64,000 nt of DNA from positions 1 through 64,000 of the forward strand of contig JAJUHA010000002.1 of NCBI GenBank assembly GCA_029268145.1. The letters run 5' to 3'. The notes under the pieces were generated by a model. It saw only the letters and a program-made list of their open reading frames with translations, was not told the DNA's origin and made no database searches. Shown here in pieces: positions 14,350-43,288 of the stretch. The translations under genes were made by a program, and so were the position numbers. The stretch comes from Sphingomonadaceae bacterium (GTDB taxonomy: Bacteria > Pseudomonadota > Alphaproteobacteria > Sphingomonadales > Sphingomonadaceae). How positions within the stretch are numbered: the first letter of the stretch is position 1; each line of letters opens with the position of its first letter.

Positions 14350-14982
14350 TCAGGCGAGGGCAGTGCGCCGGCGCTGCCGCAGCGCGAAACCGACCATGCC
14401 GAAGCCGGCGATCAGCATCGCCCAGGTGGCCGGCTCGGGGATCGCTGAGGTGATCACCCGGATATTGTCCCCGGGAGACGAGGCCTGCCAGTCGTCGATG
14501 AAGAGCGTGCTTCCAGAGAAGCTGGTGCCCGGAATGTCGCGGGTCTCGAGACCGCGCGCGCTCGGGCTGTTGTAGGTGATGGTGGGTAGGCCGAGCAGGC
14601 CGTCGGTCGCGATGAGGCCGCTGCGCGTCCAGATGATCCCGAGGATCGGCCGATCGAAGGTGACCGAGCCGATGACGGTGCGGGTGCCGCTCGGGTCGAA
14701 GACCACCCCGTGGCTCGCCACCCGGGTTCCCGCGGCAATGACGCCGCCGAGGTCGGTCGCGAGCGGTGCCGCGAGCACGACATTCTGCTTCTCGTCCCAG
14801 GCGAACAGCTCGTTGTTCGACTGCTGGTCGTTGTTGCCCACGGCGAACGGCGGGGTGAGGATGGTGAAGCTGCCGGGGCTCGCTGTGCCGCCGGTGATGG
14901 CGCCGCCAGTGACCGCGGCCGACGCGGTTCCGGCAACCATGAGACCCGCGAGGGCGGCGAGGATTGCAGAGGACTTGGTCAT
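14350..14982 (-). CDS. PEPxxWA-CTERM sorted extracellular protein
   Basis: A 210-residue exported protein. A signal peptide (ILAALAGLMVAGTASA) starts it and a C-terminal sorting signal (IPEPATWAMLIAGFGMVGFA, then RQRRR) ends it. This tripartite motif of PEP, hydrophobic helix and Arg cluster is recognised by an exosortase, which is not in the window. The body resembles beta-rich domains of other sorted proteins and gives no enzyme signature. The start is supported by AGGAG. A textbook sigma-54 promoter ends 37 or so bases upstream, with a 17-base palindrome further up, so expression is probably activator-dependent. Confidence 0.9.
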   Translation of the reverse strand: MTKSSAILAALAGLMVAGTASAAVTGGAITGGTASPGSFTILTPPFAVGNNDQQSNNELFAWDEKQNVVLAAPLATDLGGVIAAGTRVASHGVVFDPSGTRTVIGSVTFDRPILGIIWTRSGLIATDGLLGLPTITYNSPSARGLETRDIPGTSFSGSTLFIDDWQASSPGDNIRVITSAIPEPATWAMLIAGFGMVGFALRQRRRTALA

Positions 14983-15028
14983 GGGTTCCGACTCCTGATC
15001 GTGGACTGCCGTCCGCTGCCATTGTAAG

Positions 15029-15045
15029 TGCAAGATCCGTGCCAA
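15029..15045 (-). promoter_or_regulatory. sigma-54 (RpoN) -24/-12 promoter
   Basis: On the minus strand the sequence TTGGCACGGATCTTGCA matches the RpoN consensus YTGGCACG-N4-TTGCW at every fixed position. The -24 GG and -12 GC are correctly spaced. The expected start of transcription is near 15019, about 37 bases before the ATG of the PEPxxWA-CTERM gene, which has an AGGAG ribosome site. No competing sigma-70 promoter is evident. Confidence 0.8.
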
Positions 15046-15107
15046 CCCCGACGCGAGGAAGAACGCAAGACATCACAGATTGTTCACGCTTCAGCGCATG
15101 ACAGACG

Positions 15108-15124
15108 TGTAAAGAATCTTGACA
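15108..15124. promoter_or_regulatory. 17-base palindrome, probable activator (enhancer) site
   Basis: TGTAAAGAATCTTGACA is a palindrome with 7 of 8 base pairs matching around a central A. It lies 62 bases upstream of the -24 element, near -89 to -105 from the predicted start. That is the usual distance for the binding site of a sigma-54 activator. In organisms with PEP-CTERM systems a PrsR-type response regulator is the natural candidate; this is inference. Confidence 0.5.
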
Positions 15125-15148
15125 GGTTTGGGTTACGACCAGGTTAAT

Positions 15149-15161
15149 GGGGCTTGGCCCC
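15149..15161 (-). terminator. short hairpin after the carboxylase gene
   Basis: GGGGC and GCCCC form a 5-base stem around a 3-base loop, 10 bases beyond the stop of the carboxylase gene, followed on the minus strand by ATTAACC. It is weak as an intrinsic terminator. Confidence 0.3.
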
Positions 15162-15170
15162 GCACGCTGC

Positions 15171-17183
<2,013 letters not shown>

Positions 17184-42217: not shown

Positions 42218-43288
42218 ATGCGGAAGATGATCATCGCCGCGGCCGCGCTTGCGCTGGCGGCACCGGTCGCGGCATTCGCGCCCACCCAGTTCATCCTCTT
42301 CGGGGACAGTTTCATCGATGCCGGCGTGGTTGCCCAGTTCACCGGCGGCATCACGCCCGATGCCAGCCTCGGCTACTGGTACGGCCGGTTCTCGGAAGGG
42401 CCCACCTGGGCCGATCAGCTCGGCTATGCCAATTTCGGCCGGCCGACCGACCCGTTCAATGTCGCCAACCCGGCCTTCACGCTGCCGCCGCCCTTCACGC
42501 CCGGCGCCACCAGCTTCGCGGTCGGCGGTGCGCGCGCCTCGTTCGACGATGTGCAGCCGCTCGGCACCATTCCGTCGCTGCCCAGCCAGCTCGGCCTCTA
42601 TGGCCAGTATCTCGCCTTCACCGGGCAGACGGTCGATCCCGGCGCGCTCTACGTCATCAACTTCGGCAACAATGACGTGAACCTCCTCATGGCGACGCCC
42701 GACCCGGCGGACCAGCTGCTGATCGCCAATGCCTATGTCGCCAACATGGCAGGCGCGGTGACCGGCCTTGCCGCGGCCGGTGCCCGCCACATCCTGATCC
42801 TCGGCGTGCCCAACCCGACCAACCCGGTCGGGGTCGCGCTGCAGGCCGCGCTCGATGCCCAGCTCGACCTCGTCGCGGCCGGCCTGCCGCCGGCCGTCAG
42901 CCTCTACCGCTTCGACTATTTCGCCTTCTTCAACACGCTGGCGGCCGATCCCACCGTCTTCGGCCTGCCCGCCGATCTCGACCTCGTCACGCCCTGCCTC
43001 GCAGCCGTGCCGCCCGGGCCCGGCATCGACTGCACCGGCTATCTCTCCTTCGATGGAATCCATGTGACCCGCGCGGTCCAGACCGCCCTTTCGGTGGAGA
43101 TCGGCCGGCTGGTCGGGATCGCGGTCGTGCCGGAGCCCGCGAGCTGGGCAACCATGATTGCCGGCTTCGGCCTGGTGGGCGGTGCGCTCCGGCGCCGCAG
43201 GCAAGCCGCAGGCGCCGCCCGAGCCCTGGCCGCGGGGCTTCGGCCAGCGAGATCTTCGCGCGGAGTTGAGGAATCTTGTTGCGCATAG
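42218..43288 (+). CDS. SGNH/GDSL hydrolase with PEPxxWA-CTERM sorting signal
   Basis: A 356-residue secreted esterase/lipase-like protein. A signal peptide covers about residues 1-20. The GDSL block is FILFGDSFIDAG (Ser31); NFGNNDVN supplies the Asn block and FDGIHVT the Asp/His block. The end carries VPEPASWATMIAGFG and RRRR, the exosortase signal, but 28 further residues follow before the stop, whereas sorting signals normally end within a few residues of the Arg cluster. GGGGGAG precedes ATG 42218. No sigma-54 site is visible in the 64 bases after miaA. Confidence 0.88.
   Translation: MRKMIIAAAALALAAPVAAFAPTQFILFGDSFIDAGVVAQFTGGITPDASLGYWYGRFSEGPTWADQLGYANFGRPTDPFNVANPAFTLPPPFTPGATSFAVGGARASFDDVQPLGTIPSLPSQLGLYGQYLAFTGQTVDPGALYVINFGNNDVNLLMATPDPADQLLIANAYVANMAGAVTGLAAAGARHILILGVPNPTNPVGVALQAALDAQLDLVAAGLPPAVSLYRFDYFAFFNTLAADPTVFGLPADLDLVTPCLAAVPPGPGIDCTGYLSFDGIHVTRAVQTALSVEIGRLVGIAVVPEPASWATMIAGFGLVGGALRRRRQAAGAARALAAGLRPARSSRGVEESCCA

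Follow-up and report, generated by a model that had tools for sequence, protein, structure and literature searches.

The promoter region of a PEPxxWA-CTERM gene

The window, by which we mean the whole 64,000-nucleotide stretch of DNA that was analysed, belongs to contig C2 of a draft genome (G000; 2.66 Mb in 82 contigs, 99.8% complete) of the genus Thermaurantiacus, which NCBI places in the Sphingosinicellaceae of the Sphingomonadales. It carries two genes for PEPxxWA-CTERM proteins, and a set of putative regulatory elements lies ahead of one of them:

15108..15124, minus strand: PrsR box (motif 1) TGTCAAGATTCTTTACA, a 17-nt imperfect palindrome and predicted PrsR binding site
15046..15107, minus strand: spacer between box and sigma-54 site, 62 nt
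15029..15045, minus strand: predicted sigma-54 −24/−12 promoter TTGGCACG-GATC-TTGCA, whole site TTGGCACGGATCTTGCA
14992..14996, minus strand: ribosome-binding site AGGAG, 9 nt 5′ of the ATG
14350..14982, minus strand: PEPxxWA-CTERM gene, 210 aa, ATG at 14982, matching NF035944 and PF07589
42218..43198, plus strand: second PEPxxWA-CTERM gene (locus L004), from its ATG to the end of the sorting-tail match

The preliminary description of this region, made from the letters alone, proposed a sigma-54 site matching the consensus at every fixed position, a palindrome 62 bases upstream of it and a well-placed ribosome site, and each of these features was recovered. All 12 scored consensus positions of the sigma-54 site are matched, with the GG at 15043-15042 and the GC at 15031-15030; if, following established sigma-54 geometry, the C of this GC is taken as −12, transcription would presumably start at 15018 on the minus strand. 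When two mismatches are allowed, the sigma-54 pattern occurs seven times in the window against 5.1 expected, which is chance level, and the copy at 15045-15029 is the only one with no mismatch. The palindrome (15124-15108) has six complementary arm pairs of seven, and its pattern, again with up to two mismatches, has one match in the window against 0.02 expected from shuffles. No terminator was found between 14900 and 15250. Upstream, a gene on the same strand (biotin-carboxylase-like by eye) has its 3′ end 188 nt away, and read-through from it is therefore possible. An alternative TTG start at 15045, which would put the promoter within the reading frame, was rejected because the AGGAG and the signal-peptide-like start both stand at the ATG at 14982.

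The target had been described as a PEPxxWA-CTERM gene, and this assignment is borne out by the sorting-tail models NF035944 (50.4 bits, cut-off 35) and PF07589 (33.6 bits, over its cut-off), and in the profile comparison that gave the NF035944 score only two models, both for sorting-tail domains, are passed; in Pfam, nothing besides the sorting tail was matched. The 210-aa product begins with a signal-peptide-like N-terminus (by eye), followed by a body and the sorting tail PEPATWAMLIAGFGMVGFALRQRRR, which lies a few residues from the C-terminus. An AlphaFold2 model built from five sequences consists of strands and a C-terminal helix, with a mean pLDDT of 54.3, too poor for a fold search.

Regulatory and sorting machinery

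Genes for RpoN, PrsR, PrsK and an exosortase, for which the preliminary description had proposed a search, are all present in the genome. PrsR (TIGR02915) is encoded at C61:186-1508 and scores 656 bits against a cut-off of 502.6; 13 proteins of the genome match this model and one is over the cut-off. PrsK (TIGR02916; 518.8 bits, cut-off 300) is encoded in tandem with PrsR on contig C61, kinase first, and RpoN reaches 395.8 bits against a cut-off of 277. The TPR lipoprotein PrsT (TIGR02917) was not detected over cut-off in the 82-contig draft (best match 54.7 bits against 312.2); PrsT is a companion in the profile of 2006 and no part of the promoter.

A single exosortase was matched in the draft genome, namely XrtV (383.3 bits, cut-off 313), and XrtA falls short of its own cut-off there (156.1 bits against 208). 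XrtV is adjoined by an EpsI of type V (257.8 bits, cut-off 228); genes resembling polysaccharide-export proteins, below their cut-offs, lie upstream, a sugar transferase over cut-off lies downstream, and two of the genes driven from a PrsR box (see below) are found about 3 kb downstream. One genome encodes XrtV together with 45 PEPxxWA tails over cut-off, the combination expected of XrtV/PEPxxWA-CTERM sorting. A literature search that covered few subscription journals returned nothing related on XrtV or PEPxxWA. Components labelled for another exosortase persist in this genome even though XrtV is the sole exosortase found (loci concerned: C4:33117-33884 and C25): the XrtA-associated decarboxylase TIGR03099 (523.4 bits, cut-off 478), the ligase TIGR03098 (579.5 bits, just under its cut-off of 592) and the XrtA-labelled PrsK.

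Distribution of box and promoter across the genome

NF035944 has 46 matches in the genome; the one below cut-off (16.4 bits) was dropped, leaving a set of 45 PEPxxWA-CTERM genes. A gene was counted as carrying the pair when its sigma-54 site matches 11 or 12 of the 12 consensus positions and a TGT-N11-ACA box stands 52-75 nt further upstream. The search for both motifs before other sorted-protein genes, again suggested in the preliminary description, located the pair at 14 of the 45 (L001, L002, L003, L005, L011, L012, L013, L015, L016, L023, L029, L033, L035 and L042), the box of L033 ending in ACG instead of ACA. Only part of the sortome would therefore be under this control, as had been predicted, and the second sorted protein of the window is an example of the remainder: upstream of the gene at 42218 there is neither a PrsR box nor a sigma-54 site, the best match being 9/12 and inside the gene, in agreement with the original statement.

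At the other 31 genes the sigma-54 score does not exceed 10/12, and the single 10/12 case has no GG. For four of them (L022, L025, L027 and L030) the upstream scan was incomplete, and the genome-wide list of strict sites, from which an 11/12 site would escape, has no site near them. The score of the box alone overlaps between the two groups, ranging from 10 to 14 of 14 at the 14 genes (taking the nearer box of L035) and from 8 to 11 at the others; it is box, site and distance together that separate them. The strict sigma-54 pattern TGGCAYG-N4-TTGC occurs 24 times in the genome against once for a reversed control, and the box-plus-site pair 12 times against none. Thirteen of the 24 strict sites precede PEPxxWA genes, two are boxed with another target and nine are boxless, some of the latter preceding flagellar-looking or P-II-looking genes (by eye).

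Conservation and co-occurrence with PrsR

Relatives of the gene, complete with box and site, occur in all five genomes of the genus that were compared, its own included, with protein identities of 78, 78, 60 and 48%; Thermaurantiacus tibetensis is a named relative in which box and site are kept (L147). An alignment of six promoters from these five genomes (the second gene copy in G004 being incomplete at the end of its sequence stretch) has 24 invariant columns, of which 10 fall in the box (TGTC, T and TTACA), 11 in the −24/−12 site (TTGGCA and CTTGC) and three elsewhere. In the four sister genomes (G001-G004) there are 31 box-plus-site pairs. A complete PEP-CTERM reading frame lies behind 20 of these, and the remaining 11 comprise two before a small membrane protein, five at a sequence end and four that are interrupted or unclear. 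One PrsR-driven PEP-CTERM gene has a relative at a sister locus (L131, contig C23 of G001) that carries an in-frame stop after 46 codons, beyond which the frame continues; the stop is either a recent inactivation or a sequencing error.

The comparison was extended to 30 genomes, that is, the host genome and 29 relatives, in which exact pairs were sought at distances of 45-75 nt. PrsR is over cut-off in 22 of the 30, and one further genome (G019) has a fragment just under it at 497.6 bits. If this fragment is counted, 15 of the 23 genomes with PrsR contain pairs, as against none of the seven without it (Fisher p 0.006); with the cut-off applied strictly, the counts are 14 of 22 against one of eight (p 0.035). 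Eight of the 23 PrsR genomes have no exact pair in this range of distances.

Spacing between box and promoter

For NifA and NtrC, it is established that the activator has to be placed on the correct side of the DNA helix. Among the 30 genomes, the search between 45 and 75 nt returned 72 matches (double boxes at one site being counted apart) against none in controls, and their gaps fall at 52-54 (19), 61-65 (39) and 72-75 nt (14), with none in between. Here and in the order-wide counts the gap runs to TGGCA and equals the spacer plus one. When expressed as spacers, 45 sites of the genus are distributed over 41 (one), 51-52 (13), 60-64 (25) and 72-75 nt (six); they comprise the 14 of the host genome before PEP genes and 31 sister sites, the latter mostly from the 45-75 nt search, and a few contigs may carry one promoter twice.

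Across the order, three pattern searches of 296 genomes over 15-107 nt gave at least 150, 74 and 69 matches, against 1, 1 and 2 for reversed controls; 149, 73 and 69 were used, two second boxes being left out. Sites were taken by sequence pattern, whatever gene follows. Among the matches listed, gaps cluster near 43, 53, 63, 74, 84, 95 and 105 nt. At a period of 10.5 the resultant over 46-107 nt is 0.70 (n=218 among the matches listed), compared with 0.28 at most in 1000 uniform simulations, figures that describe a pattern and not exact probabilities because related genomes are non-independent and the downstream genes were unsorted. The best-fitting periods, again among the matches listed, are 10.6-10.8 in subsets with several classes and 10.45 in all rows. 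Some far boxes share a site with a nearer one: of 26 such cases, 18 lie 20-21 or 30-31 nt from the nearer box, and the 43 far boxes that stand alone at their site still give a resultant of 0.64.

Within the order, then, box-to-promoter distances step by one turn of DNA, which goes beyond the published description of these promoters. No statement of a helical-face rule for PrsR was found in a literature search that covered few subscription journals and included passages of Haft et al. 2006 (PMC1569441). In a wider survey of the phylum, 24 of 299 genomes had a match (reversed control, two). Among the 23 matches from beyond the order, gaps of 46, 49 and 70 nt are off phase, and some matches look like chance occurrences within genes. 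The phasing of these 23 does not reach significance (R 0.34, p about 0.07), which speaks against a general spacing rule.

Comparison with published PrsR and PEP-CTERM promoters

The arrangement of a motif 1, a spacer of about 63 nt and a motif 2 was reported for 99 out of 167 PEP-CTERM genes of proteobacteria by Haft et al. (2006, PMC1569441), in whose published account PrsR is named as the likely binder of motif 1, the spacer has a mean of 62.8 and a range of 32-92, and the distance from motif 2 to the start codon is 23-221. Compared with that description as far as it was available, the locus in the window agrees in its 17-nt motif 1 with the 3′ end TTTACA, in a spacer of 62 within the range of 32-92, in a −24/−12 motif 2 with GG and GC that stands 46 nt from the start, and in the tandem prsK-prsR genes with a PEP-CTERM target. 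The proposal that the palindrome is the PrsR-type box of this lineage accordingly fits the published motif 1 and was already in print (PMC1569441). Two differences from the same source are that PrsT, part of its profile, is absent over cut-off here, and that the 8.8-kb contig bearing prsK-prsR has no exopolysaccharide genes by eye (compare PMC1569441, as far as its account extends). A double box in the host genome (L096, C5:38357), in which one site has two boxes upstream of it at 60 and 175 nt, resembles the repeated motif 1 mentioned there (PMC1569441). A further difference is that the present system pairs XrtV with PEPxxWA tails, whereas NCBIfam labels PrsK as belonging to an ‘XrtA/PEP-CTERM system’.

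Aquincola tertiaricarbonis is a betaproteobacterium. Its pepA gene has a mapped −24/−12 start that needs RpoN1, and as reported in the accessible part of that study it shares with our locus a PEP-CTERM gene, a −24/−12 promoter and a predicted upstream enhancer (PMC9850573). PepA is nevertheless another protein, its NCBIfam model scoring far below cut-off here, and start and RpoN dependence are experimental in Aquincola (PMC9850573), while those of our locus are predicted from sequence. In Desulfovibrio vulgaris, the response regulator DVUA0057 enriched five predicted PEP-CTERM targets by DAP-chip; like PrsR it is a response regulator predicted for PEP-CTERM genes, but it is plasmid-borne within a ten-gene operon related to exopolysaccharide, and its binding motif was not validated there, according to the portion of the paper that concerns it (PMC3333781). 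Mutants of prsK and prsR in Zoogloea are reported at second hand to lose their flocs (PMC9012009).

A probable PrsK-PrsR/sigma-54 promoter

Taken together, the site is very probably a PrsK-PrsR/sigma-54 promoter of a PEP-CTERM gene. The sequences show the DNA elements and how they are conserved, identify prsK, prsR, rpoN and xrtV in the genome, and tell which genes have the pair; from this we infer binding, phosphorylation, activation and sorting in the following form. PrsK, a membrane histidine kinase, would phosphorylate PrsR, a response regulator of the NtrC type with an AAA+ domain. PrsR would then bind the palindrome, some 90 to 106 bp ahead of the predicted start, and, acting across about six turns of DNA, would drive open-complex formation by RpoN-RNA polymerase at −24/−12. 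The product would be exported by its signal peptide and its PEPxxWA tail processed by XrtV, the sole exosortase found.

The same DNA could be read in other ways. A sigma-54 promoter might respond to a different NtrC-type activator (NtrC, NtrX or a flagellar one) on the palindrome, and the genome offers candidates, 13 of its proteins matching the PrsR model with one over cut-off; the nine boxless strict sites, some of them before flagellar or P-II-like genes (by eye), indicate that other activators are at work. Against this substitution, the box tracks PEP-CTERM genes and PrsR and fits the published PrsR motif, and nine of the 11 strict sites not preceding PEPxxWA genes are boxless; we judge it highly improbable. 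A slightly smaller likelihood still attaches to expression mainly by read-through, for which the same-strand gene beyond the 188-nt gap would be the source, or from a promoter of the housekeeping or ECF type that escaped detection, with the sigma-54 site in a minor role. The scan of 14900-15250, which covered promoters of the sigma-70-like type, found none, and box and −24/−12 site hold 21 of the 24 invariant upstream columns. Mere chance resemblance, with box and promoter functionless, might be suggested by the chance-level frequency of the two-mismatch sigma-54 pattern in the window; set against 12 genome-wide pairs versus none in the control, invariance in five genomes and phased spacing in the order, its probability is minute.

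The PrsK-PrsR/sigma-54 promoter is of a type ordinary for PEP-CTERM sorting, with a layout known since 2006, and what goes beyond earlier knowledge is the stepped spacing in the order, together with the apparent additional targets. The analysis places the published circuit in a genome with XrtV as the sole exosortase found, and since the predicted regulon can be counted, at 14 of 45 sorted proteins, one can ask what distinguishes the switched third. With helical quantization, ‘about 63 nt’ becomes a precise rule that can be tested for the contact of PrsR with RpoN polymerase, and the prediction of sites would be tightened.

Boxes before targets other than sorted-protein genes

Two boxes of the host genome, C25:22666-22750 and C8:8275-8349, precede no sorted-protein gene, and similar arrangements recur in other genomes:

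L121:8767-8967 (G000, contig C25), L132 and L150: gene for a 56-66 aa protein behind a PrsR box
C8:8275-8349 (L120:4276-4350) in G000, and L124 in G003: gene-less PrsR box with its sigma-54 site
L156, L157, L159-L164 and L168: gene for a conserved 72-112 aa protein, preceded by a TGTCG-N9-ACA box whose distance to the sigma-54 site is 41-43 nt

The box at C25:22666-22750 precedes the 56-66 aa protein, which has one hydrophobic stretch (by eye); protein and box were found in three of the five genomes of the genus by pattern search, at 57-73% identity, and one copy gave no Pfam or NCBIfam match. In the host genome this gene is convergent with that of the XrtA-associated decarboxylase.

The gene-less promoter at C8:8275-8349 consists of a perfect palindrome, 41 nt and the site, and a GC hairpin follows; no reading frame of at least 60 aa lies on the same strand within 200 nt. 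G003 has the same gene-less arrangement with a spacer likewise of 41 nt, and at the same place in a third species, G002 (L155), there is a complete PEPxxWA gene, which has a box of its own, also at 41 nt, an acyl-CoA-dehydrogenase-like gene being the neighbour in all three. The end codons and terminator region of the G002 gene match the sequence after the promoter in G000 and G003, and the promoter of these two species seems to have been joined to the terminator by a deletion. Between them, 24 of 27 bases of the full consensus are kept (p 0.006), or 24 of 24 if only box positions 1-6 and 12-17 and TTGGCAC/TTGCA are counted (3.7e-5 if neutral); for the background, identity is 65% at four-fold sites of the adjacent gene, and 19 of 41 positions agree in the 41-nt spacer. 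Selection on the gene-less promoter would follow only from a single, ancient deletion common to both. The promoter may have an RNA of about 85 nt as its product. This stretch folds no better than shuffles (z −0.69), and a terminator scan after the promoter found none, probably for want of a T-run.

Short spacers also occur before a second small protein. Thirteen loci with spacers of 40-43 nt were inspected in other genomes of the order: nine precede the 72-112 aa protein, three a PEP-CTERM protein and one neither. The protein has a membrane-bound look and an LF.IKT..E motif, and the four copies tested have no Pfam or NCBIfam match. It is conceivable, though we consider it rather unlikely, that the PrsR regulon extends beyond sorted proteins to a selected gene-less promoter making an RNA of about 85 nt and to small membrane proteins, with its sites quantized in turns on one face of the DNA; the odds of this wider reading are slightly lowered by the dependence of the conservation figure on which bases are counted as fixed. 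The non-sorted targets are candidates for feedback or for accessory parts of the system. In the order-wide short-gap search, 70 of the 71 genomes matched have one short-gap pair each.
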